NCBI RefSeq assembly: GCF_016765695.1
Contig: NZ_JAETGO010000030.1
Location: forward strand, 1 to 64,000
Direction: 5' to 3'
Length of the DNA: 64,000 nucleotides
DNA from: Sporosalibacterium faouarense
GTDB lineage: Bacteria; Bacillota; Clostridia; Tissierellales; VENL01
The notes beneath the pieces are model-generated. The model saw only the letters and a program-made list of their open reading frames with translations, was not told the DNA's origin and did not search any database. Numbering within the stretch: position 1 is the first letter of the stretch; every line of letters begins with the position of its first letter. Positions 7,967 through 40,434 of the stretch are shown here, piece after piece. A program made the translations under genes and the position numbers.

Positions 7967-8617
7967 ATGAAAAAGAAACTTACTAAAAAGGAAATGAAAG
8001 AAGTACTTGATATATTAAGGGAGCTTTATCCCAATGCTGAATCAGAATTGAATTTTACAAGCCCTTTTGAGCTATTAATTGCAACGATATTAGCTGCCCA
8101 GTGTACAGATGTGAGAGTTAATAAGATAACTAAGGAATTATATAAAAAATATAAAAAACCAGAAGATTTTCTCACTCTTACTCAAGATGAATTAGGAGAA
8201 TTAATTAGAAGCTGTGGTTTCTATAGAAATAAGAGTAAAAATATATTAATGACTTGTGAAATACTTGTTAATAAATATGGTGGAAAAGTACCTCAAACTA
8301 GAGAAGAGCTTGAAGAACTTCCAGGAGTAGGGAGAAAAACGGCTAATGTGGTAATTAGTAATGTATTTGATAAGCCAGCTATCGCCGTTGATACCCATGT
8401 TTTTAGGGTATCAAATAGAATTGGTCTTGCCTCAAGTGATAATGTTATGAATACTGAAAAGGATTTAATGAGAAATATTAAGAAGGAAGACTGGTCAGAT
8501 GCTCATCATTGGTTGATTTTCCATGGGAGAAGAGTTTGTAAAGCTAGAAAACCAAAATGTGAAGAGTGTTCTTTAACTGATTATTGTCTATATTTCAATC
8601 AAAATGTGAAAAAGTAA
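7967..8617 (+). CDS. nth: Endonuclease III
   Basis: A DNA glycosylase/AP lyase that removes oxidised pyrimidines. The helix-hairpin-helix LEELPGVGRKTANVV holds the catalytic Lys124, and AVDTHVFRVSNR holds the catalytic Asp142. The C-terminal cysteines CKARKPKCEECSLTDYC form the 4Fe-4S cluster (C-x6-C-x2-C-x5-C). The 216-residue length is normal. GAAAGGATG lies just before the ATG. Probably cotranscribed with the ylxP-like gene. Confidence 0.95.
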   Translation: MKKKLTKKEMKEVLDILRELYPNAESELNFTSPFELLIATILAAQCTDVRVNKITKELYKKYKKPEDFLTLTQDELGELIRSCGFYRNKSKNILMTCEILVNKYGGKVPQTREELEELPGVGRKTANVVISNVFDKPAIAVDTHVFRVSNRIGLASSDNVMNTEKDLMRNIKKEDWSDAHHWLIFHGRRVCKARKPKCEECSLTDYCLYFNQNVKK

Positions 8618-8742: not shown

Positions 8743-10830
8743 ATGGAAACTAACAAAGTAACTAAAATGAATACTGACGAGCTAGTATTTTCTCTAGATA
8801 TAGGAACTAGAACGGTAATTGGATTAGTAGGTAAATATAAAGATAATAACCTAGAGATAGTAGAGTCAGATATAATTGAACATGATGAGAGAAATATGTA
8901 TGATGGACAGATTCATGATATCGGAGGAGTTACAGAAATCGTTAGGAAAATAAAAGACAGATTAGAAAATAAGCTTGGGCAAAAACTGGACAAGGTTTCA
9001 ATAGCTGCAGCTGGTAGGGCTCTTGAGACATATAGAGTAATAGTAGAAAAAAACATTGAAAATATGCAAGAAGTCAATAAAAGAATTATTGAAGGTCTAG
9101 AAATGGAAGCAATACAAAAAGCTCAAGGAGCTGTAGAAAATCAGTCATCTGATGGAGGATCACAATATTATTGCGTTGGATACTCAGTTGTAAACTATCT
9201 ATTAGATGGAAATATCATTGAGAATTTAGAAGGTCATAGAGGACGTAAGGTTTCAGCCGATGTTTTGGCTACTTTTCTTCCTCATACAGTTGTAGATAGT
9301 CTCTATACAGTTATGAGTAGGGTAGGTTTGGAAGTAGTAAATCTGACTTTAGAGCCTATAGCTGCTATAAATGTGGCCATTAAAAAAAGTCTTAGACTGT
9401 TGAATTTAGCTTTAGTTGATATAGGAGCTGGAACTTCAGATATCGCAATAACAAAGGATGGAACAATTATTGCTTATGCTATGGCTTCAGTGGCTGGAGA
9501 TGAGATTACAGAGAAAATAGCAAAGACGTTTTTGTTAGATTATGACATAGCAGAAAAATTAAAGATTAGTTTAAACTCCAAAGATGAGCATAAATTTTAT
9601 GATGTTGTAGGTATAGAACATAATTTAACCACAGAAGAAGTATTAGATAGGATAAATGACGCAATTGAAGATTTAGCTAGAGAAATAGGAGATAAGATAT
9701 TGAAATATAATGAGAAGGCTCCCAGTGTTATTTTCCTTATTGGTGGTGGTAGTCAGATACCAAGATTAACAAACTATATCGCTAATTATTTAAAAATGCC
9801 TGAGCCAAGAGTGGTTGTTAGAGATACATCAATTATTGAAAACGTCAAGGGTATACCTGAAGCTCTAAATGGACCTAATGCAATAACACCTATAGGTATT
9901 GCTAAAACGGCAATAGACAGTAAATATAAGGATTTTTTAGAAGTAGTTATCAATGGACAAAAGGTTAAGCTATTTAATTCAAAACAAATAAAAGTATCTA
10001 ATGCTCTTATTTTAATTGGGTATAACCCAAGAGATTTAATTCCTAAGCGCGGAGAAGACTTTACTTACTATGTCAATAGTGAAAAAAAAGTTATTAAAGG
10101 CGATGTAGGTGAACCAGCTAAAATATATGTTAATGGAAGTGAAGCTAACTTAGAATATAGACTATTAAACGGAGATAACATAAAGGTCATTAAATCTACT
10201 TCAGGAGAAAAGCCACAAGCTCCTAGGATTTATGATTGTGTAAAAATGGTGAAAAGAGTTTTATTTAATGATCATGAAGTAAAACTTATTGAATCAATAA
10301 AGGTTAATAATGAGTTAATAACAGAAGATAGAACTATAAATGAACATGATAAAATAGAGGTTAAAGAAATCGATATACTTGGAGAGCTATTTAAAGCTCA
10401 AGATTTAAGTATTACTGAATATAATGTGAGGGTAAATGGGAATGAAGTAGAGGAAAACTATTTATTGCATCATGGAGATAAAATTGTTACTAAGAAAATC
10501 AAAATGGAAAATAATGCATCAAATGAGAATAAAGAAGAAATAGCAGATAAAAACAGCAATTCTTATAACAAGGAAAATATGGATATAAAAAACAATAAGG
10601 ATATTCCAGTTAAGAAAACAATTGAATTGATAATAAATGGTAGTGCAAAGATGATAGAATACGTAAAGAAAGATCTAATATTTGTTGACTTATTTAATTA
10701 TATTGATTTTGATTTATCAAAACCAAAGGGGATTATTATCCTTAAGGTGAATGGAAAAAAAGCTGAGTTTGCTCAAAAACTAAAAGATGGTGATAATATA
10801 GAAATTTACTGGGAAAAGCCAGAAATTTAG
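8743..10830 (+). CDS. FtsA-like ATPase-fold protein with C-terminal beta-grasp-like repeats
   Basis: A 695-residue protein. Residues 12-395 are an actin/FtsA-type fold: phosphate-1 loop FSLDIGTRTVIGLVG, SHS2-like insert, phosphate-2 loop LVDIGAGTSDIAIT and adenosine motif VIFLIGGGSQIPRL. It is much longer than FtsA (about 420). Residues 396-695 contain several units of a VNGxx...L.dGDxI pattern, near 460-483, 520-543, 562-585 and 667-690, resembling ThiS/MoaD-like beta-grasp domains; a polar linker (about 590-620) separates the last. AGAGGTG is 5 bases before the ATG. No ftsZ is near, so I do not call it ftsA. A cytoskeletal, PilM-like or membrane-adaptor role is possible. Confidence 0.7.
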   Translation: METNKVTKMNTDELVFSLDIGTRTVIGLVGKYKDNNLEIVESDIIEHDERNMYDGQIHDIGGVTEIVRKIKDRLENKLGQKLDKVSIAAAGRALETYRVIVEKNIENMQEVNKRIIEGLEMEAIQKAQGAVENQSSDGGSQYYCVGYSVVNYLLDGNIIENLEGHRGRKVSADVLATFLPHTVVDSLYTVMSRVGLEVVNLTLEPIAAINVAIKKSLRLLNLALVDIGAGTSDIAITKDGTIIAYAMASVAGDEITEKIAKTFLLDYDIAEKLKISLNSKDEHKFYDVVGIEHNLTTEEVLDRINDAIEDLAREIGDKILKYNEKAPSVIFLIGGGSQIPRLTNYIANYLKMPEPRVVVRDTSIIENVKGIPEALNGPNAITPIGIAKTAIDSKYKDFLEVVINGQKVKLFNSKQIKVSNALILIGYNPRDLIPKRGEDFTYYVNSEKKVIKGDVGEPAKIYVNGSEANLEYRLLNGDNIKVIKSTSGEKPQAPRIYDCVKMVKRVLFNDHEVKLIESIKVNNELITEDRTINEHDKIEVKEIDILGELFKAQDLSITEYNVRVNGNEVEENYLLHHGDKIVTKKIKMENNASNENKEEIADKNSNSYNKENMDIKNNKDIPVKKTIELIINGSAKMIEYVKKDLIFVDLFNYIDFDLSKPKGIIILKVNGKKAEFAQKLKDGDNIEIYWEKPEI

Positions 10831-10951: not shown

Positions 10952-12343
10952 ATGTTTGATATAAATGCCAAGAAATTTTTTCAGATAAGTATAGGAATAA
11001 TTCTAACTATTGTAGTTGCCCTTATGATTTTTTCATATATTTTACTCAATAGAACAACTATATACGAAGGAATAAATATCAGTGGTGTAGATGTTAGTAA
11101 ACTTAATAGAATGGAAGCCATTGAAAAGCTACAGAATGAATTTGAAGATGAGATTAATAAATCAGTATTGATATTGAGGTATGAAGACTATATTTATAAA
11201 GCAAAATACAGTGACCTTGGAGTAGGATATGATTACTATAAAGCTGTAGAAGATAGCTTGGCAATTGGAAGACAAAAAAGTATAATTGAAAAATTAAAAG
11301 ATATTCTCCATGTTAGAATAAATGGTGGGAATATTGGGTTAGGATTATTATATGATGATAAGAAAATAGATAGAATTATAGAGGATGTCAGAAAAGATAT
11401 ATGTATAAATAGTGAAGATGCTAAAATTGAATATATTAATGGCAGTTTTAATATTACTCCAGAAGTAATTGGACAGAAAATAAACATTGACGTTTTTAGA
11501 ATGAGAATAATTGCTGCACTTAAATCCAGTAAAGAGGTAAAGGTTCCAGTAGAAAAAGACTTACCAAAGATTACGAAGAAAATGCTAGATAAAATAAAAG
11601 CAAATGTAGGAGGGTTCAGTACGTCCTTTGGAGGAAGTAGTGAAGCCAGAAAAAATAACATACAGGTGGCAACAATGAAGATTAATGGTCAATTGATTTT
11701 ACCTGGAGAAGTTTTTTCATTTAACAAAGCTACAGGTTTTAGGAATAGAGAAACTGGATATATGATATCTAAAGTCATTGTTGATGGTAAGTTTGTTGAT
11801 GACATAGGTGGAGGAGTTTGTCAAGTGTCTACCACCTTATATAATGCAGTTTTAAGAGCTGGACTAGAAATTGTTGAAAGAACTCACCATTCGTTACCTG
11901 TTGGATATGTACCTAAGGGTGCAGATGCAACAGTATCATATGGATATCTTGACTTAAAGTTTAAAAACAATTATGATTTTCCTATCTATATTAGGGGTTT
12001 AGCTAATTCATATGCGGTTACTTTTCAGATATATGGTGGGCAAATTAGTGGTAGTAGGTCTATTGATATAGTTTCTGAAATAGAAGAAAGAGTTGAACCA
12101 GATGTTGAAAAGAGAATAGATAATAATTTAGCTCCTTGGTCAACAGAGATACTTCAGCAAGGGAGATATGGCTATAAAGTTAAAACATATAGAGTTTTTT
12201 ATGAAGATGGTGAGGTTGTAAAAAGGGAATTAATTTCAGATGATTTTTATAAACCTAAAAAATATATAATAAGAGTTGGTCCAGGTAACTCTAAAACAAG
12301 TAGCATTCAAGATAACAATTACAAAGGAAGATTAGTTCAATAG
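10952..12343 (+). CDS. VanW family protein with N-terminal anchor
   Basis: A 463-residue cell-surface protein. One membrane segment (about 10-32, FQISIGIILTIVVALMIFSY) anchors it, followed by a peptidoglycan-binding-4-like domain starting GINISGVDVSKLNRMEAIEKL. Residues about 215-370 are the VanW domain, with the hallmarks PGEVFSFNKATG, GGGVCQVSTTLYNAVLRAGL, ERTHHSLPVGYVPKGADATV and YPDFPIYI-like (NNYDFPIYI). A charged C-terminal region follows. VanW was named in vanB-type glycopeptide-resistance clusters but is widespread in clostridia; its activity is unknown. AAGGAGG lies upstream of the ATG. Confidence 0.88.
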   Translation: MFDINAKKFFQISIGIILTIVVALMIFSYILLNRTTIYEGINISGVDVSKLNRMEAIEKLQNEFEDEINKSVLILRYEDYIYKAKYSDLGVGYDYYKAVEDSLAIGRQKSIIEKLKDILHVRINGGNIGLGLLYDDKKIDRIIEDVRKDICINSEDAKIEYINGSFNITPEVIGQKINIDVFRMRIIAALKSSKEVKVPVEKDLPKITKKMLDKIKANVGGFSTSFGGSSEARKNNIQVATMKINGQLILPGEVFSFNKATGFRNRETGYMISKVIVDGKFVDDIGGGVCQVSTTLYNAVLRAGLEIVERTHHSLPVGYVPKGADATVSYGYLDLKFKNNYDFPIYIRGLANSYAVTFQIYGGQISGSRSIDIVSEIEERVEPDVEKRIDNNLAPWSTEILQQGRYGYKVKTYRVFYEDGEVVKRELISDDFYKPKKYIIRVGPGNSKTSSIQDNNYKGRLVQ

Positions 12344-12361: not shown

Positions 12362-13039
12362 ATGGCTGTAGAAGAACTATATGACAAAAAGGTAAAGTGC
12401 CCAGTATGTGAAACCCAGTTCACATCCAAAAAAGTTAAATATTCAAAATTAAGAGTTAAAAGTAAGGATAGCGACCTATTAACCTATTATAAAGGAGAGA
12501 ATCCTTTAAAATATAATGTTTTTATATGTCCGATGTGTGGATATGCTGCAACGGAAGAAAAATATAATGATATTAGTAATGATAAAAAAGCTATAGTTAG
12601 GGATAAAATAACTTCAAGATGGAAAGAAAGAGAATTTTCTACTCCTAGAGTCATTGATGAAGCAATTATGTGCTATAAGCTGGCTCTAAATTGTGGAGAT
12701 GTTTTAGCTTTTAAGAAAGCATATAACGGGGGATTATGCCTAAGTATAGCTTGGTTATATAGGATGAAAAATGATAAGAAAAATGAAGGGAAATTTCTTG
12801 GATTCGCTCTTAACCTATTTGTTGAAGCTTATTCAACTGAATCACTGATTAACTCTTCGATTGATGAAATTACTCTAGCTTATTTAATTGGTGAAATACA
12901 AAGAAGATTAGGGAATACTGATGAAGCAATTAAATGGTTTAGTAATGTAGTTTCTCATTCGCTGATAAGCACAAAACCTAAAATTAAGAAATTAGCTAGA
13001 GAACAATGGAACTTAGTTAGAGAAAATCAAAAAGGGTGA
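12362..13039 (+). CDS. DUF2225 family protein
   Basis: A 225-residue cytoplasmic protein. The N-terminal half has two zinc-ribbon-like cysteine pairs, KVKCPVCETQF and FICPMCGYAA, as in DUF2225. The second half is helical and TPR-like (ALNCGDVLAFKKAYNGGLCL, GNTDEAIKWFSNVV). Function is not known. A GGGGG site lies before the ATG, 18 bases after the VanW gene, and its end overlaps the region of the next gene's ribosome site. Confidence 0.85.
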   Translation: MAVEELYDKKVKCPVCETQFTSKKVKYSKLRVKSKDSDLLTYYKGENPLKYNVFICPMCGYAATEEKYNDISNDKKAIVRDKITSRWKEREFSTPRVIDEAIMCYKLALNCGDVLAFKKAYNGGLCLSIAWLYRMKNDKKNEGKFLGFALNLFVEAYSTESLINSSIDEITLAYLIGEIQRRLGNTDEAIKWFSNVVSHSLISTKPKIKKLAREQWNLVRENQKG

Positions 13040-14026: not shown

Positions 14027-15361
14027 ATGGATAGTGGAGGAAAGATCGTGAACACAGAGGTAGAGCAAAAGGATGAGCTATTATATCATATTAATGATAA
14101 GCCTTCATTAGCAGTTGCTATACCGTTGGCAATCCAAAATATTGTTGCAGCTTTTAGTGGCATTATTGCAGTTCCACTGGTAGTAGGTTCAGCAATCGGA
14201 CTAACACCAGAACAAATGACGTTTATCGTTAATGCAACCTTATTTATGGCAGGAGTAGCAACTTTTATTCAAGCATATGGAATAGGACCTATTGGTTCGA
14301 AATTACCATGTATTATGGGTACTGACTTTACTTTTGTTGGACCATCAATCGCTGTTGGTAGTACTATGGGATTACCGGGGATTTTTGGAGCAACAATACT
14401 AGGTTCTTTTGTAGAAATCATCTTAAGTAGATTTATTAAGCCATTAATGAGGTTCTTCCCACCGGTTGTTACTGGGACAGTTGTTTCTCTAATAGGGCTA
14501 ACAATTATGCCAGTTGCAGTTGATTGGGCTGCAGGTGGAACTGGAGCGTCTGATTATGGTAGCTTGGAAAACATTTTCCTTGCATTAGTGGTTATGGCAA
14601 TAATAGTTGTATTAAATCAATGGGGGAAAGGATTCACTCGTGCAGGGGCAATATTAATAGGTATAATTGTTGGCTATTTTGTTTCGTATTTCATGGGAAA
14701 ATTAGACTTTAGTCAAGTTACAAATGCTAGTTGGGTGTCATTCCCGACTCCATTTAAATATGGTGTTAAATTTAGTCTTCCAGCACTATTAGCTTTTATA
14801 CCAGCTTATTTAGTTACTACAGTTGAAAGTATAGGTGACCTTTTAGCAGTAGGAGAAGCCAGTCAACATGATGTTTCTGGTGAAGAGCTAGGTGGAGGAT
14901 TATTAGCAGATGGTGTAGGTAGCTTCTTTGCAGGTATATTTAATGCTGGACCAAATACTTCTTTTAGCCAAAATGTTGGGATTATTCCTGTTACTGGAGT
15001 TGCAAGTAGATTTGTAATTATAATTGCAGGAGTAATTCTAATGATTTCTGGGCTATTACCTAAATTAGGAGCTCTAATTGCGATAATGCCAAATGCAGTG
15101 CTTGGGGGAGCAGGAATTATTATGTTTGGTATGATAGCAGTAGGAGGATTCAAGATTCTTCAAAAAGTTAATTTTACAAGAAGAAATAGTCTTGTTGTAG
15201 CAATATCTATAGGATTAGGTATGGCAGTGGTTGTTAGACCCGATGTATTAAGTCATTTACCAAATGGATTACAAGTAGTTCTTAGCTCTGGTATAGCGAC
15301 AGGAACAATAACTGCGTTACTTTTAAACTTAATATTACCTAATACAAAGGTAGCAGAATAA
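14027..15361 (+). CDS. NCS2 family uracil/xanthine permease
   Basis: A 444-residue membrane transporter of the nucleobase:cation symporter-2 family with about 14 membrane segments. It imports uracil or purine bases with protons. Family motifs are visible: IPLAIQNIVAAFSGIIAVPL, FIQAYGIGPIGSKLPCIMGTDFTFVGP, the TTVESIGDLLAVGEAS helix with the substrate-binding Glu, and the NAGPNTSFSQNVGIIPVTGV motif. Those motifs are closest to the xanthine/uric acid branch, but the substrate is not certain. GGAGGGG is 4 bases before the ATG. It is a single-gene unit ending in a terminator. Confidence 0.9.
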   Translation: MDSGGKIVNTEVEQKDELLYHINDKPSLAVAIPLAIQNIVAAFSGIIAVPLVVGSAIGLTPEQMTFIVNATLFMAGVATFIQAYGIGPIGSKLPCIMGTDFTFVGPSIAVGSTMGLPGIFGATILGSFVEIILSRFIKPLMRFFPPVVTGTVVSLIGLTIMPVAVDWAAGGTGASDYGSLENIFLALVVMAIIVVLNQWGKGFTRAGAILIGIIVGYFVSYFMGKLDFSQVTNASWVSFPTPFKYGVKFSLPALLAFIPAYLVTTVESIGDLLAVGEASQHDVSGEELGGGLLADGVGSFFAGIFNAGPNTSFSQNVGIIPVTGVASRFVIIIAGVILMISGLLPKLGALIAIMPNAVLGGAGIIMFGMIAVGGFKILQKVNFTRRNSLVVAISIGLGMAVVVRPDVLSHLPNGLQVVLSSGIATGTITALLLNLILPNTKVAE

Positions 15362-15372
15362 GTTCATCACTA

Positions 15373-15398
15373 AAGACCCTTTTAAGGGTCTTTTTTTT
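15373..15398 (+). terminator. Intrinsic terminator after the permease gene
   Basis: AAGACCCTT, a two-base centre, AAGGGTCTT, then T8. Confidence 0.92.
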
Positions 15399-15469
15399 AT
15401 CTCCCGAAAAGGCTACATAAGCATATTATATAATAAATAATTTTGTAGCTTTTAAGGGGTGTGGTAATT

Positions 15470-16866: not shown

Positions 16867-17829
16867 GTGAACATAAGAAGAAACAAAGTATTACTACTAT
16901 TATTATCTTTACTATTAATTACATCCTTAATTTCAGGGTGCGTTAGGGTTAAAGAAGAGTATAGAGAAAAAGATCAAGATAATGATGATTTATCAAAGAT
17001 TGAGTTGCCAGATTCTGTATATCCAATGGAGATAGAAGACGGCTTTGGTAATAAGGTTACTTTAGATGGTAAGCCTTGGAGAATAATTTCATTAGCTCCA
17101 AATCATACAGAGATTCTCTTTAAACTAGGACTTGGAAATAGGATTGTTGGTGTTGACAGCTACTCTGATTATCCTGCTGAAGCTAAAGAAATTGAAAAAG
17201 TAGGAGACTCTGAAACAATTAATATTGAAAAAATAATTGAGCTTGATCCAGATTTAGTAATACAGTATGGACCTGGTGCTGAGGATGTAAACAAAAGTCT
17301 TAGAGATGCAGGAATAACACTATTAAGCTATGAGCCAGAATCAATTGATGATGTTATTAATCTCATAACAGAGTTAGGGAAAATTACTGATACTATGAGA
17401 ACTGCTAAGATGGAAACAGTTGTTATGCAAAGTAAGCTTGAATATATTACTCAGGTAGTAGAAGATGCAGAGAAAACAAAAGTATTTTATGAAGTATGGA
17501 ACGATCCTTTAATGACAGCTGGACCAGGAACATTTTTAAATGAACTTATTACTTTGGCTGGTGGAGAAAATATTGCTGCAGATGCTGAAGAAGGATATCC
17601 ACTTTTTGATACGGAACAATTAATTGAAAAGAATCCAGATGTATATATAGCTACAAAAGACAGCGATAAGGAAGAAATAATCAATAGACCTGGTTATGAT
17701 GAAATTAATGCCATTAATAATGACCGTATTTATTTACTTGAACCAAATATTATCTCAAGACCGGGACCTAGAATTGTAGATGGTTTAGAACTTATGGCTA
17801 AGACATTACACCCAGAGCTATTTGAGTAA
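16867..17829 (+). CDS. Iron-complex/cobalamin-type ABC transporter substrate-binding lipoprotein
   Basis: A 320-residue lipoprotein of the periplasmic-binding-protein-2 (BtuF/FhuD/FecB) family, the receptor for vitamin B12 or iron chelates. The lipobox is LISGC (Cys25). The mature protein shows PWRIISLAPNHTEILFKLGLG, VGVDSYSDYPAEA, the NIEKIIELDPDLVI hinge and the C-lobe with IEKNPDVYIAT and RPGPRIVDGLE. Translation starts at GTG, 8 bases after GGAGGA. It is followed after 14 bases by its permease gene. The ligand is not identifiable, and no B12 riboswitch or iron box was seen upstream. Confidence 0.88.
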   Translation: MNIRRNKVLLLLLSLLLITSLISGCVRVKEEYREKDQDNDDLSKIELPDSVYPMEIEDGFGNKVTLDGKPWRIISLAPNHTEILFKLGLGNRIVGVDSYSDYPAEAKEIEKVGDSETINIEKIIELDPDLVIQYGPGAEDVNKSLRDAGITLLSYEPESIDDVINLITELGKITDTMRTAKMETVVMQSKLEYITQVVEDAEKTKVFYEVWNDPLMTAGPGTFLNELITLAGGENIAADAEEGYPLFDTEQLIEKNPDVYIATKDSDKEEIINRPGYDEINAINNDRIYLLEPNIISRPGPRIVDGLELMAKTLHPELFE

Positions 17830-17843
17830 TAAAGAGCTGAGAT

Positions 17844-18896
17844 ATGGTGAGTTACTTAAAGAAAAAAAATAAATGGATAGTATCCATATCATTTCTTATA
17901 ATTTTTTTAGTTGTGAGTATAGCAGTATTTGTGACTATTGGTTCAGCAAGTATTACAGTACTCGATACAGTTAAAATTATAATATCAAAGATTCCAGTTT
18001 TGAAGAATCTAGTAGACATAAATGATTTACCTAGATCTTCAGCAGTAATAGTATTGAATATAAGGATACCTAGGGTTTTACTTGGAGTGTTAGTTGGAGC
18101 AGCTCTATCTACTGTAGGGGCTGCTTTTCAAGGTATGTTTAAGAACCCTATGGCAGATCCCTATGTTATTGGGATTTCGTCAGGGGCTGCATTAGGAGCT
18201 ACATTAGCTATAATTGGAAACGTGAGCTTTTTAATTTTAGGTATATCAGAGACTTCTCTTGGAGCATTTATTGGAGCTATAACTTCGACTTTTGTTGTAT
18301 ATATGATTTCTAGAGTAAAAAACAAAATTCCTGTTACTGTATTATTACTCTCAGGAATTGCAATAGGACAGTTCTTCACAGCCATAATGTCCTTTATTAT
18401 GGTTATTCATAGTAATGATTTAGATAAAATAATATACTGGACCTTGGGAAGTTTTTCAGGGAAAGGATGGGACCAGCTTATTTCTGTAGCTGTTCCAATT
18501 ATTATATCAATAGTTGTACTCAATTTTTTTGCTAGAGATTTGAATGCTATGTTAACAGGAGAAGAAACTGCTCAGAATTTAGGCATTGAAGTAGAAAAGG
18601 TAAAACTAATAATATTAATTATAGGAGCATTTCTTACGGCAATGGCTGTTTCTGTAAGTGGGATAATCGGATTTGTTGGACTAATTATTCCCCATATTGT
18701 TAGATTAATTGTAGGATCTGACCATAGAATTTTAATGCCAGCGTCAGCAATGGTTGGTGGAATCTTTATGATATTTGCAGATACTTTAGCAAGAACTATG
18801 ATTTCTCCCACTGAAATACCCGTTGGTATTATAACAGCAATGTTTGGAGGTCCTTTCTTTATCTATTTATTAAGAAAAAAGAGAAAAAGTATTTAA
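17844..18896 (+). CDS. FecCD family ABC transporter permease
   Basis: A 350-residue membrane protein of the BtuC/FecCD family with about nine or ten membrane segments, forming the channel for iron-chelate or cobalamin import. Family motifs include NIRIPRVLLGVLVGAALSTVG, FQGMFKNPMADPYVIGISSGAALGA, the ATPase-contact helix AQNLGIEVEKVK, and the GIIGFVGLIIPHIVRLIVG segment. The ribosome site is weak (AAGAGCTGAG). No gene for the required ATPase follows: the next feature is a terminator and a MoxR operon. The partner ATPase must come from elsewhere or be missing. Confidence 0.9.
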   Translation: MVSYLKKKNKWIVSISFLIIFLVVSIAVFVTIGSASITVLDTVKIIISKIPVLKNLVDINDLPRSSAVIVLNIRIPRVLLGVLVGAALSTVGAAFQGMFKNPMADPYVIGISSGAALGATLAIIGNVSFLILGISETSLGAFIGAITSTFVVYMISRVKNKIPVTVLLLSGIAIGQFFTAIMSFIMVIHSNDLDKIIYWTLGSFSGKGWDQLISVAVPIIISIVVLNFFARDLNAMLTGEETAQNLGIEVEKVKLIILIIGAFLTAMAVSVSGIIGFVGLIIPHIVRLIVGSDHRILMPASAMVGGIFMIFADTLARTMISPTEIPVGIITAMFGGPFFIYLLRKKRKSI

Positions 18897-25599: not shown

Positions 25600-25703
25600 T
25601 TTACTGATTTTTTTAAAAGAATTATTAAAATGATAATATTAATATGGTATACTGTTTGAGGTGTTGCTTATGTTACTTAAAGAATGAAGAAAGGGTGTTG
25701 CGG

Positions 25704-26168
25704 ATGAATTTTGAACTAGTAGGTCCATTTTCAAAATCCAGTAAAGATATTTTTGCTCAAGTAGGAAATATTCAGATGGAAGTAGAAGATGCTTATGAAA
25801 AAAGAGAAGTAGAATTAAAGAATAATATTGGAATAGTAGTAGGGTTAACTGGATCGTTGAAGGGACAGGTTATTATAGATATTCCGTCAGAAGTTGGGAA
25901 AAAAATTGCTTCTAATATGATGGGTGGTATGCCTATAGCAACCCTAGATGATATTGCAAAAAGCGCCATATGCGAAATGGGTAATATGATAATGGGTAGT
26001 GCAGCTACTAACTTATATGATTTAGGATTAACAATTGATATCACTCCACCTAGTATTATTTCAGGTAGAGAAATCAAAATGAAAACAGTCGAAGATCAAG
26101 TGCTGTGCATACCCTTTAAGAGTGAGGAAGATATTATAGAAATTAATATTTCTGTTAAGGAAAAATAA
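25704..26168 (+). CDS. cheX: CheX-type chemotaxis phosphatase
   Basis: A 154-residue CheC/CheX/FliY-family protein. The helix AICEMGNMIMGSAATNL carries the Glu-x-x-Asn phosphatase motif, and GQVIIDIPSEVGKKIASNMMGG forms the conserved beta strand and helix. CheX removes phosphate from CheY to end a motor signal. No other chemotaxis gene is in the window, so the organism is probably motile with its main cluster elsewhere. The start is ATG 25704, about 8 bases after AAAGGG; longer in-frame readings give an unlikely Cys-rich leader. Confidence 0.85.
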   Translation: MNFELVGPFSKSSKDIFAQVGNIQMEVEDAYEKREVELKNNIGIVVGLTGSLKGQVIIDIPSEVGKKIASNMMGGMPIATLDDIAKSAICEMGNMIMGSAATNLYDLGLTIDITPPSIISGREIKMKTVEDQVLCIPFKSEEDIIEINISVKEK

Positions 26169-34255: not shown

Positions 34256-34316
34256 TGCATATAATATGTAACATTTTATTTTAACAAAAGTGGAAATATC
34301 AAGAGGAGGTGAACCT

Positions 34317-35603
34317 ATGCGCTTAGAATTAGGAAACATTCTAATTAAGGATGTTCAATTTGGCGATGTGACAAAAGTAGAAAACAACACTTTATTTGTT
34401 AATAAAGAAGAATTGATTAACTTAATATGTGAAGATGAAAACATTAAAAGTGTTGAAGTTGAATTAGCAAAGCCTGGTGAAAGCACAAGAATTACACCTG
34501 TAAAGGATGTAATCGAGCCTAGAGTTAAAGTTGAAGGACCAGGAGGGATATTCCCTGGAGTACTTTCTAAGGTAGATACAGTTGGGTCAGGAAAGACTCA
34601 TGTATTAAAGGGCGCAGCAGTAGTTACAACTGGTAAAGTGGTTGGTTTCCAGGAAGGTATTGTAGATATGACTGGACCTGGTGCTGAGTACACACCATTT
34701 TCAAAGCTAAACAATGTTGTATTAGTATGTCAACCAAAGGATGGGTTAAAGCAACATGAGCATGAAAAAGCTTTAAGAATGGCTGGGTTAAAGTCAGCTG
34801 CGTATTTAGGAGAAGCTGGTAAGGATGTAACACCAGATGAGGTTAAGGAGTATGAGTCATTACCTCTTCTAAAGAGCGTTGAAAAATATCCTAACCTTCC
34901 AAAGGTAGCATATGTTCAAATGCTTCAAAGTCAAGGGTTATTACATGATACGTATGTATATGGAGTAGATGCTAAACAAACACTATCTACTTTAATAAAC
35001 CCAACTGAAATTATGGATGGAGCTATAATAAGTGGTAACTGTGTTTCTGCTTGTGATAAAAACACAACTTATCACCATTTAAATAATCCAATTATCCATG
35101 ACTTATTTGAGAAGCATGGTAAAGAGGTAAACTTCGTAGGTATGATAATTACTAATGAAAATGTTTACCTTGCCGATAAAGAAAGATCATCAAACTGGGC
35201 AGCTAAATTATCTGAATACCTAGGAGTAGATGGAGTAGTTATATCTCAAGAAGGTTTTGGTAACCCAGATACTGATCTAATTATGAACTGCGTAAAGATT
35301 GAGAAAAAAGGTATAAAAACTGTAATTGTTACAGATGAGTATGCTGGTAGAGATGGAGCATCTCAATCATTAGCAGATGCAGACTCATTAGCAAACGCAG
35401 TTGTTACTGGCGGTAATGCTAACGAAGTTATTGAGTTACCACCTATGGATAAGATTATTGGATATACACAACCAGTTAATAGTATAGCTGGTGGTTTTGA
35501 TGGTAGTTTAAAAGAGGATGGTTCAATTGTAGTTGAGCTTCAAGCTATTACTGGAGCCACAAATGAACTAGGATTTAATAAGCTAACAGCAAAAGGATAT
35601 TAA
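34317..35603 (+). CDS. grdE: Glycine reductase component B proprotein subunit GrdE
   Basis: The 428-residue precursor of the two non-selenium subunits of substrate-specific component B. GrdE is cleaved at a Cys to give a pyruvoyl group that binds the amino group of glycine as a Schiff base. The cleavage site SGNCVSACDKN is intact with Cys242. ATG 34317 is 4 bases after AAGAGGAGGTGA, an exceptionally strong site. It is followed after 32 bases by grdA. Confidence 0.96.
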   Translation: MRLELGNILIKDVQFGDVTKVENNTLFVNKEELINLICEDENIKSVEVELAKPGESTRITPVKDVIEPRVKVEGPGGIFPGVLSKVDTVGSGKTHVLKGAAVVTTGKVVGFQEGIVDMTGPGAEYTPFSKLNNVVLVCQPKDGLKQHEHEKALRMAGLKSAAYLGEAGKDVTPDEVKEYESLPLLKSVEKYPNLPKVAYVQMLQSQGLLHDTYVYGVDAKQTLSTLINPTEIMDGAIISGNCVSACDKNTTYHHLNNPIIHDLFEKHGKEVNFVGMIITNENVYLADKERSSNWAAKLSEYLGVDGVVISQEGFGNPDTDLIMNCVKIEKKGIKTVIVTDEYAGRDGASQSLADADSLANAVVTGGNANEVIELPPMDKIIGYTQPVNSIAGGFDGSLKEDGSIVVELQAITGATNELGFNKLTAKGY

Positions 35604-35635
35604 TATAAAATAAAAAACTGAAAGGATGTGCGAAA

Positions 35636-36112
35636 ATGGGACGTTATGATGGCAAAAAAGTTATCATTATTGGAGATAGAGATGGAATACCAGGTCCAGC
35701 TATTGAAGAATGTTTAAAGTCTACAGAAGCAGAAGTTGTTTTCTCATCAACTGAGTGTTTTGTCTGAACGGCTGCAGGAGCAATGGACTTAGAAAATCAA
35801 CAAAGGGTTAAAGATTTAACAGAGAAGCATGGCGCTGAGAACATAGTTGTTCTTTTAGGTGCAGCTGAAGGAGAGGCTGCTGGTTTAGCGGCTGAAACTG
35901 TTACAGCAGGAGACCCTACGTTTGCAGGTCCATTAGCAGGAGTCCAGTTAGGACTTAGAGTTTTCCACGTAGTAGAGCCAGAATTCAAGGATGAAGTAGA
36001 TGCTGAAGTTTATGACGAGCAAATTGGTATGATGGAAATGGTTCTTGATGTAGATGAAATCATTGAAGAAATGACAGATATTAGAGACGAATTCTGTAAA
36101 TTTAACGACTAA
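35636..36112 (+). CDS. grdA: Glycine reductase selenoprotein A
   Basis: A small (158-residue) selenoprotein that carries the carboxymethyl group as a selenoether and passes it to component C. The reading frame crosses an in-frame TGA at 35765-35767, which decodes as selenocysteine 44 in the Cys-x-x-Sec motif ECFVUTAAGA (Cys41). A short stem-loop directly follows the TGA. Downstream the sequence reads on without frameshift to FCKFND. AAAGGATG precedes the ATG. A standard gene finder would split it; translation needs SelB and tRNA-Sec, not encoded here. Confidence 0.97.
35768..35790 (+). promoter_or_regulatory. Candidate SECIS element of grdA
   Basis: Just after the UGA, GCTGCAGGAGCA can form a short stem-loop (TGC/GCA around AGGA). 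Bacterial SECIS elements lie at this position and overlap coding sequence. The stem is short, so this assignment rests mostly on position. Confidence 0.5.
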
Positions 36113-36174
36113 TGAAGAATATGACTTTAAAATAACAAATACTAAACCCAAAAACCTAGAGAGGGGGGAAACTA

Positions 36175-37485
36175 ATGAGTAAAATTAAAGTAGTTCACTA
36201 TATAAATCAGTTCTTCGCTGGAATTGGTGGAGAAGAAAAAGCTGACTACAAGCCAGAAGTAAGAGAAGGTATAGTTGGTCCAGGTATGGAGTTTAACAAG
36301 AGATTCGGTGACGAAGCAGAAATAGTAGCAACTGTTATCTGTGGAGACTCTTACTTTAATGAAAACTTAGAAGAAGCACAAGCAGAAGTAATCGAAATGG
36401 TTAAGAAATACAATCCTGATATTTTCGTAGCAGGACCAGCATTTAATGCCGGGAGATATGGTGTTGCTTGTGGAACTATAGCTGATGCAGTACAAAATGA
36501 ATTAGGTATCCCTGTTTTAACTGGTATGTACGAAGAAAACCCTGGAGCAGATATGTTCAAGAAGAGTGTATACATTATATCAACTAAGAACAGTGCAGCA
36601 GGTATGAGAAAAGCTGTTAAAGCAATGGCTCCATTTGCTATTAAGTTAGCTAAAGGTGAAGAAATCGGAGCACCAGATGAAGAAGGATACTTCTCAAGAG
36701 GTATAAGAAAGAACTATTTTGCAGAAAAAAGAGGTGCTGCAAGAGCTGTTGACATGCTTGTTAAGAAACTAACGGGCCAGGACTTCACTACAGAATTCCC
36801 AATGCCTGACTTTGACAGAGTAGATCCAAATCCAGCTGTTAAAGATATTTCTAAGGCAAAAATAGCTTTGGTTACTTCTGGAGGTATTGTACCAAAGGGT
36901 AACCCAGATCATATAGAATCTTCAAGTGCTTCAAAGTATGGTAAGTACGATATTGATGGTGTTATGGATTTAACAGAAGAGACCTATGAAACAGCTCATG
37001 GTGGGTACGACCCAACATATGCTAACAATGATTCAGATAGAGTACTTCCTGTTGATGTACTAAGAGATATGGAAAAAGAAGGTAAGATTGGAGAATTATA
37101 TAAGTACTTCTATACTACAACTGGTAACGGTACTGCTGTTGCAAGCTCAAAAGCATTTGCAGCAGAATTTGCTAAAGAACTAGTTGCAGATGGAGTAGAT
37201 GCAGTTATATTAACATCTACCTGAGGCACTTGTACACGTTGCGGTGCAACAATGGTAAAAGAAATAGAACGTGCAGGAATTCCTGTAGTTCATATGTGTA
37301 CAGTAGTACCTATCTCATTAACAGTAGGTGCAAATAGAATAGTTCCAACTATTGCTATTCCTCATCCACTTGGAAACCCAAGCTTAGATGCAGCTGAAGA
37401 AAAAACCTTAAGAAGAAAATTAGTTGAGAAAGCTTTAGTAGCTTTAGAAACTGAAGTTGATACTCAAACTGTTTTTGACAAGTAA
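36175..37485 (+). CDS. grdB: Glycine reductase selenoprotein B
   Basis: The 436-residue selenium subunit of substrate-specific component B. An in-frame TGA at 37222-37224 is selenocysteine 350, in the conserved Sec-x-x-Cys-x-x-Cys motif UGTCTRCGAT. The selenol attacks the glycine Schiff base held by GrdE. Reading continues without frameshift for 86 residues to VDTQTVFDK. The segment GTRMxxGDxx-type N-terminus (KIKVVHYINQFFAGIGGEEKAD) is typical. GAGAGGGGG precedes the ATG. A conventional gene finder would report it as two pieces. Confidence 0.97.
37225..37255 (+). promoter_or_regulatory. Candidate SECIS element of grdB
   Basis: Downstream of the UGA, GTTGCGGTGCAAC (37238-37250) forms a perfect five-pair stem around GGT. 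An outer GCAC/GTGC pairing is possible. Its distance from the UGA is right for a bacterial SECIS. Confidence 0.65.
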
Positions 37486-37536
37486 TTAAAGTGGCTATAT
37501 GCTATAAGCTTTAGCTAGCTAACTTTTAAATCATAG

Positions 37537-37561
37537 AGGGTGATGGCAACATCACCCTTTT
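37537..37561 (+). terminator. Terminator-like hairpin between grdB and grdC
   Basis: AGGGTGATG, loop GCAA, CATCACCCT then TTTT. It may cause partial termination so that component C genes are expressed less than A and B. Confidence 0.75.
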
Positions 37562-37698
37562 AAAAGTAATAATAAACTTTCATAAACTAGGGGTATGTTT
37601 GAATGAATATATGAAATACTTAGTAAAAATCGGTGACTTTTTTGATATGTTCATTTAAACTACTTTAACTTTTTTTAAAATTTTCGGAGGTGAATATA

Positions 37699-39237
37699 AT
37701 GGCATTTTCTGTAGTAAAGGGAGCTGGATATGTATTAGTACATACGCCAGACATGATAATTCATAATGGAACAACACAAACATCTGAGAGAATAGTTAAT
37801 CCAGAGTCAGAGTATTTAAAAAAATTACCTGAGCATTTAAGAAGTTTTGAAGAAGTAGTAAGTTATCCACCAAACCAAACATATATTGGAAACATAACCC
37901 CAGGAGATTTATCTGAGTATAAGATGCCTTGGTATGATAAAAAGATAGATGATGCAGGTAGATTTGGTAAATTTGGTGAGATAATGCCACAGGATGAATT
38001 TATAGGACTTCTAAAAATAGTAGATGTATTTGATCTTGTAAAGCTTAATAATGAAATCACAAAAGTCGCTAAAGAAAAGCTAGAGAACCATCCTTTAATT
38101 ACTGATGAAATGGTTGCTAAACTTAAAGAAGGCGACGAGATGGAAGATATAAATAAAGCAATAAATGAGCTTCACGCTGAGCCAATATATAATAATAATA
38201 AAATAGTTGGTTGTGTCAAAAGAGCTCATGAAATTGACATTAACTTAAATGCACATACAATATTTGAGAATCTAGTAGTAAAGGCTTCTGGTGTACTAGC
38301 TATGCTAAACCTTATTAATAAAAATGATATAAACCCAGAAGATATTGGCTATGTAATAGAGTGTTCAGAGGAAGCATGTGGAGATATGAACCAAAGAGGC
38401 GGAGGTAACTTTGCAAAATCTATCGCAGAGGTAGCAGGTTGTGTAAATGCCACTGGTTCAGATACAAGAGGTTTCTGTGCAGCACCTACCCACGCTTTAA
38501 TTGAAGCATCTGCATTAGTTCAAGCTGGAGTATATGAAAATGTAGTGATTGTTGCTGGTGGAGCAACTGCAAAGCTAGGAATGAATGGTAAAGACCACGT
38601 TAAAAAAGAAATGCCAGTCCTTGAAGATGTTTTAGGGGGATTTGCTGTACTAGTGAGCAAAAACGATGGAGTTAACCCAGTATTAAGAACTGATTTAGTA
38701 GGTCGTCATACAGTAGGTACTGGTTCATCACCTCAAGCAGTAATTACTGCTTTAATTACTGCACCACTAGATAAAGGTGATTTAAAGATTACAGATATAG
38801 ATAAATACTCAGTAGAAATGCAAAATCCAGATATAACTAAGCCAGCAGGAGCAGGAGATGTTCCAACATCTAACTATAAGATGATAGCTGCTCTTGGAGT
38901 TAAGAGAAAGGAATTAGACAGAAAAGAATTACCTAATTTTGTTAAAGAACATGGTATGCCAGGTTGGGCGCCAACTCAAGGACATATACCTTCGGGAATT
39001 CCTTATGCAGGATTTGCTAGAGAAGCAATGGCAAAGGGTGAAATCAGTAGAGCTATGATAGTTGGTAAAGGAAGTCTTTTCCTTGGACGTATGACTAATC
39101 TATTTGATGGTGTATCTATAGTATTAGAAAAAAATAGTGGAAAAGTTGACGAAGGAAAAGGTGTGTCAGAAGCAGAAGTTAAGGGATTAGTAGCAGAGGC
39201 GATGAAAGAATTTGCGTCACATCTATTAGGAAATTAG
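37699..39237 (+). CDS. grdC: Glycine reductase component C, beta subunit
   Basis: The 512-residue beta subunit of component C, related to beta-ketoacyl synthase III. With GrdD it takes the acetyl group from the GrdA selenoether, via an acetyl-thioester, and releases acetyl phosphate. Features: VKGAGYVLVHTPDMIIHNGTTQ start, and a ketoacyl-synthase-like core with VNATGSDTRGFCAAPTHALIEA and the GHIPSGIPYAGFAREA segment. ATG 37699 is right after CGGAGGTGA; the GTG 37690 lies within that site. It is 12 bases from grdD. Confidence 0.95.
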   Translation: MAFSVVKGAGYVLVHTPDMIIHNGTTQTSERIVNPESEYLKKLPEHLRSFEEVVSYPPNQTYIGNITPGDLSEYKMPWYDKKIDDAGRFGKFGEIMPQDEFIGLLKIVDVFDLVKLNNEITKVAKEKLENHPLITDEMVAKLKEGDEMEDINKAINELHAEPIYNNNKIVGCVKRAHEIDINLNAHTIFENLVVKASGVLAMLNLINKNDINPEDIGYVIECSEEACGDMNQRGGGNFAKSIAEVAGCVNATGSDTRGFCAAPTHALIEASALVQAGVYENVVIVAGGATAKLGMNGKDHVKKEMPVLEDVLGGFAVLVSKNDGVNPVLRTDLVGRHTVGTGSSPQAVITALITAPLDKGDLKITDIDKYSVEMQNPDITKPAGAGDVPTSNYKMIAALGVKRKELDRKELPNFVKEHGMPGWAPTQGHIPSGIPYAGFAREAMAKGEISRAMIVGKGSLFLGRMTNLFDGVSIVLEKNSGKVDEGKGVSEAEVKGLVAEAMKEFASHLLGN

Positions 39238-39249
39238 AGGTGATATAAA

Positions 39250-40434
39250 ATGGCAGATAATAATGTAAAACAAATGATTGGGAAAGTATTTAATGATATT
39301 GCTGAAGGTTTGGAGACAGGTCAGTTTGGAGAAAAAGTCAGAGTAGGTATTACAATTTTAGGAAGTGAGCATGGTGTAGAAAACCTTGTTAAAGGTGCAG
39401 AGATGGCTCAAAAAAGAAATAGTACAATGGAAGTTGTTCTAATAGGACCTAAAGTAGATACTGACTTAAAAATAGTTGAAGCTAATACTGAAGAAGAGCA
39501 ACATAAAAAAATGGAAGAGCTATTAGACAGTGGAGAAATCCAAAGTGCTGTAACTATGCACTATAACTTCCCCATAGGAGTATCAACAATAGGAAGAGTC
39601 GTTACTCCAGGTGTTGGGAAAGAAATGTTTATAGCTACTACAACAGGAACATCATCACCTCATAGAGTGGAAGGTATGGTCAAAAATGGTGTATACGGTA
39701 TAATAACTGCAAAATCTATGGGCATTGAAAATCCAACTGTAGGAATTTTAAATGTTGATGGAGCAAGACAAGTAGAAAGAGCATTAAAAGAACTTAAAAC
39801 AAATGGATATGATATAAACTTCTCAGAATCAATGAGGGCTGACGGTGGATCAGTAATGAGAGGGAATGACCTACTAACAGGAACTCCAGATGTAATGATT
39901 ACTGATTCATTAACAGGAAATCTCTTAATGAAGATATTCTCTTCATATACAACAGGTGGAAGTTATGAAGCTATGGGCTTTGGATATGGACCAGGAATTG
40001 GTGAAGGATATGAAAGAACAATATTAATCCTTTCTAGGGCATCAGGGGTACCAGTTGTAGCAAATGCTATTGAGTATGCTGGGGAACTTGCCAAGAATAA
40101 AGTAAATGAAATATGCAAAGCTGAATTTAAAAAGGCAAATAAGTCTAAGCTACAAGATATTCTAAAAGGACTTAAGAAAGACAATAAGAAATCTGAAGGT
40201 GAAGATGAAGAAATAACTGCACCACCAAAAGAAGTTGTAACAGGTTCAGTTTCGGGTATAGATATAATGGATCTTGAAGATGCAGTTAAGGTCTTATGGA
40301 AAAATGGAATCTATGCTGAAAGTGGAATGGGTTGTACAGGTCCTATCGTAATGGTAAATGAAGAAAAATTAGATAAGGCTGTTGGAATACTTGCTAAAGC
40401 AGGATACGTAGCTCAAGAATCAGATCCTTGTTAA
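39250..40434 (+). CDS. grdD: Glycine reductase component C, alpha subunit
   Basis: The 394-residue alpha subunit of component C, a PlsX/phosphotransacetylase-like protein that helps release acetyl phosphate. It shows GITILGSEHGVENLVKGAEMA, GFGYGPGIGEGYERTILIL, and the C-terminal GMGCTGPIVMVNE motif with a conserved Cys. The last gene of the operon. The ribosome site AGAGGTGA overlaps the grdC stop region. Confidence 0.95.
   Translation: MADNNVKQMIGKVFNDIAEGLETGQFGEKVRVGITILGSEHGVENLVKGAEMAQKRNSTMEVVLIGPKVDTDLKIVEANTEEEQHKKMEELLDSGEIQSAVTMHYNFPIGVSTIGRVVTPGVGKEMFIATTTGTSSPHRVEGMVKNGVYGIITAKSMGIENPTVGILNVDGARQVERALKELKTNGYDINFSESMRADGGSVMRGNDLLTGTPDVMITDSLTGNLLMKIFSSYTTGGSYEAMGFGYGPGIGEGYERTILILSRASGVPVVANAIEYAGELAKNKVNEICKAEFKKANKSKLQDILKGLKKDNKKSEGEDEEITAPPKEVVTGSVSGIDIMDLEDAVKVLWKNGIYAESGMGCTGPIVMVNEEKLDKAVGILAKAGYVAQESDPC

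Follow-up and report, generated by a model that had tools for sequence, protein, structure and literature searches.

A long FtsA/PilM-superfamily protein of Sporosalibacterium faouarense with a predicted beta-grasp tail and an association with flagellated genomes

FtsA and PilM are related members of the actin superfamily that work by docking a partner: FtsA docks FtsN, and PilM docks PilN. To our knowledge, PilM itself has no beta-grasp tail. Here we describe a gene from a 64,000-nucleotide stretch of Sporosalibacterium faouarense (assembly GCF_016765695.1, contig NZ_JAETGO010000030.1, positions 1 to 64,000, hereafter the window) whose product joins an FtsA/PilM-type ATPase head to a long C-terminal tail. 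An earlier note, made from the sequence alone, had claimed an FtsA-like ATPase fold followed by a chain of ThiS/MoaD-like beta-grasp modules; fold prediction, structure search, Pfam and internal homology all agree with that architecture. We conclude that the window protein is a member of a distinct family of the FtsA/PilM actin superfamily and that it is not the division FtsA. The family, whose members we call the long proteins, is nearly restricted to flagellated genomes in our samples and is probably linked to the swimming apparatus. We give a probability of roughly one half to the reading that it serves the flagellar-chemotaxis apparatus as an ATP-dependent scaffold and not cell division.

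In the open-access library that we searched we found no description of this family, and we did not find its architecture, its separateness from FtsA or its flagellar link described. Database records carry the family under superfamily names. Neither of the two outcomes that the note had named as fatal to its claim arose: the modules are predicted to be beta-grasp, and no account of this architecture appeared in that library. In the parts available to us of two beta-grasp surveys (PMC1949818, PMC1779556), we found no "FtsA" and no fusion to actin, MreB, PilM or HSP70, and a PHROGs search with the window protein returned no match.

Orthologs are present in 33 of 60 relatives (order-level sample, own genome included), in 77 of 293 genomes, at least 95% complete, of the class that we take from named relatives to be Clostridia (class sample), and in 118 of 199 genomes of the phylum, a few of them as fragments (phylum sample). 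A scan of named genomes found at least 585 stretches that encode a relative (585/596 among the matches listed). We kept 80 of these at least 596 stretches, mostly from Clostridia and metagenome-assembled genomes (MAGs) of Clostridia; the Bacilli among these 80 named loci are two Paenibacillus (L093, L110) and one Bacillales MAG (L099). Clostridium ragsdalei (L116) is among the carriers. Bacillus subtilis, as far as we know, lacks the long protein. Twelve records of a plasmid collection match, two of them covering at least 80% of the window protein. A full-length relative is encoded on NZ_CP154629.1 of Acetoanaerobium noterae. This record has only 4 features annotated and is filed as a plasmid; with a length of 2.6 Mb it is probably chromosomal.

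Head and tail of the long protein

The head matches the Pfam FtsA model PF14450 at residues 223-359 with 49.7 bits (cut-off 31.8), and the MreB and PilM models slightly exceed their cut-offs as well. The FtsA/actin-type nucleotide motifs that had been read in the N-terminal part are there: DIGT and DIGAGTSDIA are wholly or almost invariant across an alignment of 30 orthologs, and ATP binding by the head is therefore likely. An AlphaFold2 model made with the 30 orthologs had a mean pLDDT of 82.1 and a pTM of 0.56. When we searched solved structures with this model in Foldseek, the first 18 were all FtsA (best E 1.7e-29, 7q6i), followed by PilM, EutJ and MreB. VIA gave the same order, with the head aligning to FtsA 7q6g at Z 42.0 (367 residues, rmsd 2.3, 22% identity), to PilM at 32.7, to EutJ at 26.1 and to MreB at about 25. 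A sequence search of the PDB returned partial matches to these four proteins and a few weak, unrelated ones.

In the tail, a VNG...GDxI motif had been claimed near residues 460, 520, 562 and 667, and we located it at 463, 521, 564 and 669. When the tail was shuffled 5000 times, four motifs were never reached (mean 0.09), and the head has one match; the pattern was written after the sequence had been seen, so the count is a guide only. As an independent test we compared profiles of tail segments from 81 orthologs. All six pairs among the segments that bear the motif (M1b, M2, M3 and M4) scored 95-98% probability, segment M1a scored 13-85% against the others, and ten column-shuffled controls stayed below 3%.

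From the models, the tail is predicted to form three beta-grasp domains that hold four copies of the motif. The chain of beta-grasp repeats proposed earlier thus stands as a fold, with three folded domains and not four: the second and third motifs share a single domain (tail 107-197), and the last domain is set off by a disordered linker at about residues 591-621. A separate model of the tail, made with 81 tails, had a mean pLDDT of 90.9, with folded modules near 98. Many of its most conserved columns lie in the third domain (FVDIFxYIDFD ... GDxIxIxW).

Among the 81 tails, Pfam matched ThiS in 67, TGS in 62, Ub-Mut7C in 54 and S4 in 17, which agrees with the ThiS-like character proposed earlier; similarity to S4 is weak. 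In the window protein Ub-Mut7C passes (33.8 bits, cut-off 23) and S4 falls just short (21.8, cut-off 22.8). The matches reach no further than the last strands of the respective profiles, and none of the stretches passes by itself; for this reason the beta-grasp claim rests on the fold evidence. VIA placed solved beta-grasp structures on each of the three domains (Table 1), with Z values that are modest, yet consistent with the sequence evidence. The top Foldseek matches of the tail were linear tetra-ubiquitin and bacterial multi-ubiquitin.

With such matches to ThiS, MoaD, TtuB and Urm1, and with a chain that resembles linear and bacterial multi-ubiquitin, the protein could be taken for an ATPase that carries a ubiquitin-like modifier or sulfur carrier precursor. 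We find this hardly credible. None of 94 distinct long proteins ends in GG, so sulfur carriage or conjugation by the tail is unlikely, and instead 92 of 99 have a tryptophan within the last 14 residues. The tail alignment and the C-terminus counts omit seven of the 80 named loci, which our open reading frame (ORF) pattern missed (L062, L065, L082, L084, L093, L099 and L110), and the set of 81 tails also omits some near-identical or cut loci.

Relation to the division FtsA

The earlier note had called for a check for a separate ftsA and ftsZ cluster, and the genome has one: a canonical 415-aa ftsA adjoins ftsZ on contig C80, and the window gene lies on contig C88. Against the NCBIfam FtsA equivalog (TIGR01174), the window protein scores 99.9 bits and does not reach the cut-off of 175.85; the genome's own ftsA scores 389.4.

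We take R300 of E. coli FtsA to be a residue that binds the FtsZ peptide. The column that we equated with it has arginine in every one of the 16 canonical clostridial FtsAs and in none of 26 long proteins; the column was set by a separate E. coli alignment together with the motif, E. coli being absent from the counted alignment. An amphipathic stretch ends most of the 16 clostridial FtsAs examined, whereas the model of the window protein ends in a beta strand and not in a membrane helix. The C-terminal hydrophobic moment has a median of 0.435 and a highest value of 0.66 in 94 long proteins, against a median of 0.67 and a lowest value of 0.48 in the 16 canonical ones, so the ranges overlap.

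In a tree of 45 rows, the long proteins cluster together with support 88/92, and this cluster is joined to PilM at 95/83. Although the best tree places the long proteins with PilM, the test does not reject a topology that unites them with FtsA (p-AU 0.34). The tree and the arginine count both leave out L093, for which the wrong ORF had been taken, and the tree also leaves out four long-branch FtsA rows. The label "FtsA-like" is therefore right only at the level of the superfamily, and the long proteins are a separate group of their own.

Could the long protein nevertheless be a second divisome FtsA, one that tethers or tunes the Z-ring and perhaps replaces a canonical FtsA that is absent? Its closest solved structures are FtsAs, and the clade with FtsA is statistically acceptable. 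Canonical FtsA is also hard to find in this class: 67 of the 293 genomes have one above the cut-off and 22 have one near it in a short ORF, a class that we read by eye among the matches listed and that may miss very divergent FtsAs. By this count 29 of the 77 carriers of the long gene have a canonical FtsA and 48 do not. However, the two genes show no complementarity (Fisher p 0.11), and 156 of the 293 genomes have neither, which led us to reject the long protein as a replacement of canonical FtsA. The missing arginine, the lack of a clear C-terminal amphipathic helix (with the overlap just mentioned) and the distance from ftsZ all speak against a divisome role, and FtsZ-based division leaves unexplained why the gene is nested in flagellar clusters in some genomes (see below). 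We consider a divisome role improbable.

As a separate observation, among the matches listed we could recognise a canonical FtsA in no more than about 89 of the 293 class genomes, and most of these genomes seem to be without the usual Z-ring tether. In the parts of the literature available to us, C. difficile is reported to be without FtsA (PMC10693644, PMC12548448), ftsA is listed as missing in some non-spore-formers (PMC3533761), and it is discussed within the dcw cluster (PMC8871954).

Association with flagella and chemotaxis

In the class sample FlhA is found in 119 of 293 genomes: 76 of the 77 carriers of the long gene have it, against 43 of the 216 non-carriers (Fisher p 8e-38; Fisher p values for this sample ignore shared ancestry). 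For two of these 76 (G162, G178) the FlhA match is a fragment that scores under the family cut-off. The other samples agree, with FlhA in 32 of 33 carriers against 11 of 27 non-carriers at the order level and in 113 of 118 against 57 of 81 in the phylum, or 110 of 115 against 56 of 77 once the 7 genomes shared with the class sample are removed. For contrast, FlhA is present in 44 of the 67 genomes that have a canonical FtsA. We then conditioned the class sample on taxonomic family, using labels taken from tables (that of G322 was lacking). Five families were informative (f24, f40, f50, f55, f69), with an exact one-sided p of 0.0019. Family f40 carries most of this signal (FlhA in 13/13 carriers and 0/2 non-carriers).

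A second PilM for type IV pili, whose head would bind a PilN-like peptide and whose tail would extend the platform, has to be weighed here. The tree grouping favours it, as does the Pfam PilM_2 match (29.9 bits, cut-off 27), but the FtsA and MreB models pass too. A copy in Anoxybacillus (Bacilli) is recorded as "pilus assembly protein PilM", and PilT is present in 74 of 77 carriers against 98 of 216 others in the class sample. This pilus link is strong when taken alone and vanishes once FlhA is taken into account: within FlhA-positive genomes PilT adds nothing (73/76 carriers, 40/43 non-carriers, p 0.67), while within PilT-positive genomes FlhA is still associated (73/74 against 40/98). The window protein stays below the NCBIfam pilM cut-off (47.7 against 133 bits). 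In addition, contig C68 of this genome carries a PilM of its own at a distance of about 2.6 kb from PilT, next to ORFs that look like a prepilin peptidase and pilus genes; PilM, the peptidase and the pilus-like ORFs were labelled by eye. Taking these together, we judge a second PilM quite unlikely.

The position of the gene in three genomes (G053 and G058, of one genus, and L115) points to motility more specifically. There the long gene lies inside a flagellar-chemotaxis cluster, in the order FliK-like ORF, FlhB C-terminal-like ORF, long gene, PilZ. The FliK-like label was given by resemblance (Pfam gave no FliK match), and the FlhB C-terminal-like ORF has 96 aa in G053 and G058 and in G058 matches Pfam Bac_export_2 with 62.9 bits. 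The three long proteins share 61-66% identity with one another and 38-40% with the window protein (P0001); the G053 and G058 copies, the only one in each genome, are 64% identical. In G058 one side of the cluster holds MotAB, FliM, FliY, FliP, FliR, FlhB, FlhA, FlgG-like, CheC and CheD, and the other side holds CheA, CheR, CheB and FliD. These labels were mostly given by eye, with FlhA, CheC, CheA-type domains, FliD, PilZ and ComFB confirmed by Pfam in G058. L115 keeps the same order, with reading frames that overlap at longest-ORF starts and with CheA, CheR, CheB, CheC and CheD around.

At the G058 locus (L141), a ComFB gene (15161-15427) and the PilZ gene (17232-17861) lie close to the long gene, hinting at second-messenger control in this cluster. 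Of the 80 named loci, 7 have CheX within the fetched flanks of the long gene. The window itself has a gene for a CheX-type chemotaxis phosphatase at 25644-26168 on the + strand (Pfam CheX, 74.8 bits), about 15 kb downstream of the long gene; we noticed no flagellar cluster around it.

Several observations weigh against a flagellar role. Most copies seen are not near flagellar genes, their usual neighbours being nth, VanW and DUF2225, and only one of the 80 named loci (L115) has a flagellar cluster around the gene. One of the five informative families, f24, trends the opposite way. Over the three samples seven carriers have no FlhA (G117, G003, G351, G364, G471, G493 and G514); G003 is a 280-contig assembly, and in the phylum sample such carriers number three in family f100, one in f113 and one in f177. 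We found no enrichment of sigma-D-like promoters, with a score of at least 10 in 7 of 103 upstream regions and in 43 of 793 background regions. Lifestyle may explain part of the link, because our counts treat genomes without a species tree. The long protein must also be an accessory to the flagellum, since many flagellated genomes are without it (43 in the class sample). Separately, all three f100 members seen (G351, G471, G493) keep the long gene without FlhA.

These exceptions leave room for a general envelope or developmental scaffold, one that acts in sporulation or together with the VanW peptidoglycan protein, for instance, in which case the flagellar link would reflect lifestyle only. 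The VanW gene does lie next to the long gene in 26 of the 80 named loci, seven carriers do without FlhA, and SpoIVA is present in 65 of 77 carriers against 149 of 216 others in the class sample. But 12 carriers have no SpoIVA above its cut-off, the association with FlhA is far stronger than that with PilT or SpoIVA, and the place of the gene in the clusters of three genomes is a motility-specific feature. An envelope scaffold is therefore unlikely in our view. Sporulation as the main function was rejected on the weak SpoIVA association and the 12 carriers without it.

What we observe is the predicted fold, the ATP motifs, the tail, the genomic link and the cluster position; the partner and the mechanism of the flagellar reading are inferred. 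A soluble head would bind ATP and, by analogy with FtsA and PilM, might hold on to a membrane partner through its short cytoplasmic peptide. The tail of ubiquitin-like domains, which has no terminal GG of the kind that sulfur transfer or conjugation requires, would serve as a multivalent docking arm, collecting cytoplasmic parts at the flagellar base, be it the export gate, the switch or c-di-GMP effectors such as PilZ, and ATP would switch the protein between free and assembled states. More specifically, and only tentatively, the long protein may be an actin-fold part of Gram-positive flagella that has gone undescribed: a "flagellar PilM" in which the docking arm at the flagellar base consists of three ubiquitin-like domains.

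Gene neighbourhood and comparison with known systems

Table 1. Position of the long gene, its domains and its neighbours in the window, with the basis of each assignment.
Feature	Coordinates	Strand	Basis
Whole gene, 695 aa	8743..10830	+	ORF with ATG start
FtsA/PilM-type actin-fold ATPase head, residues 1-394, with FtsA-type extra subdomain	8743..9924	+	Pfam, AlphaFold model, Foldseek, VIA
Predicted beta-grasp domain 1, residues 396-485, TGS/MoaD-like, inserted hairpin, motif at 463	9928..10197	+	Tail model; VIA: TGS 3hvz on tail 4-93, Z 8.6, 62 residues
Predicted beta-grasp domain 2, residues 500-590, Mth1743/TtuB-like, motifs at 521 and 564	10240..10512	+	Tail model; VIA: Mth1743 1ryj on tail 107-197, Z 8.5; TtuB 5gha on tail 112-195, Z 8.4
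Linker, residues 591-621, low confidence, poorly conserved	10513..10605	+	pLDDT <50 at 589-622
Predicted beta-grasp domain 3, residues 622-692	10606..10818	+	Tail model; VIA: Urm1-like 1wgk on tail 223-302, Z 7.7; ThiS 1zud on tail 235-302, Z 7.3
nth, endonuclease III-like (by eye), commonest upstream neighbour	7967..8617	+	Immediately upstream in 48/80 named loci
VanW protein: one N-terminal hydrophobic segment, PG_binding_4, VanW, G5	10952..12343	+	Pfam, hydropathy
DUF2225 neighbour	12362..13039	+	Pfam

An AGAGGTG stretch lies just 5' of the ATG of the long gene. The proximity of nth is probably synteny only. The VanW gene is the commonest downstream neighbour, directly 3' of the long gene in the 26 loci given above, and from this position its product is a possible partner. 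DUF2225 is directly downstream in 11 of the 80 named loci and present in 37. Of the remaining gene clusters, the most frequent one directly downstream is seen in 13 of the 80, and the two of its members that we tested with Pfam both have GAF and GGDEF domains. The conserved neighbours nth, VanW and DUF2225 point to no clear function.

Elsewhere in the window, positions 34290-40434 (+) hold what looks by eye like a glycine/betaine/sarcosine reductase operon, in which an ORF ending at 37224 may continue through an in-frame TGA as selenocysteine. The genome has a further actin-like protein on contig C20 (L007, 970-1968) that by eye resembles the plasmid segregation protein ParM. Its gene adjoins an ORF that looks like a replication initiator, so this is possibly a plasmid or an integrated element.

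If the flagellar link is causal, the motility apparatus of a large branch of flagellated bacteria contains an actin homologue that binds ATP and bears a poly-ubiquitin-like arm. We know of no assignment of such a part to that apparatus. A flagellar role would explain a gene that is now labelled by superfamily similarity only (such as pilM in Anoxybacillus), and it would be a caution against annotating the long gene as a division or pilus gene. In bacteria without canonical FtsA, as C. difficile is reported to be, counting the long homologue as FtsA would mislead. A flagellar role would also mean that a flagellar part found in over half of the sampled phylum genomes has been overlooked because the model organism B. 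subtilis appears to be without it.

Compared with FtsA (7q6g, 7q6i, 4a2a), the whole head of the window protein aligns and the nucleotide motifs are kept. It differs in having a 300-residue beta-grasp tail in place of the membrane helix, in the absence of the arginine of the presumed FtsZ site, in scoring below the equivalog cut-off, in not lying beside ftsZ and in forming a separate tree group. With PilM (2ych, 3jc8) it shares the superfamily (Z 32.7) and the tree grouping (95/83), but the gene lies outside the genome's pilus cluster, the protein has a beta-grasp tail, and its association with PilT is explained by FlhA. The tail domains have the fold and the Pfam matches of ThiS, MoaD, TtuB, Urm1 and TGS in common, whereas they have no terminal GG, stand in tandem with inserted hairpins and are fused to an actin-fold ATPase. 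Finally, the tail has the beads-on-a-string beta-grasp chain of bacterial multi-ubiquitin (9cd2, 9d5a) and linear tetra-ubiquitin (7yui), but only the order of folds is common (whole-chain TM 0.16-0.17 by query length) and the tail carries no conjugation signal.

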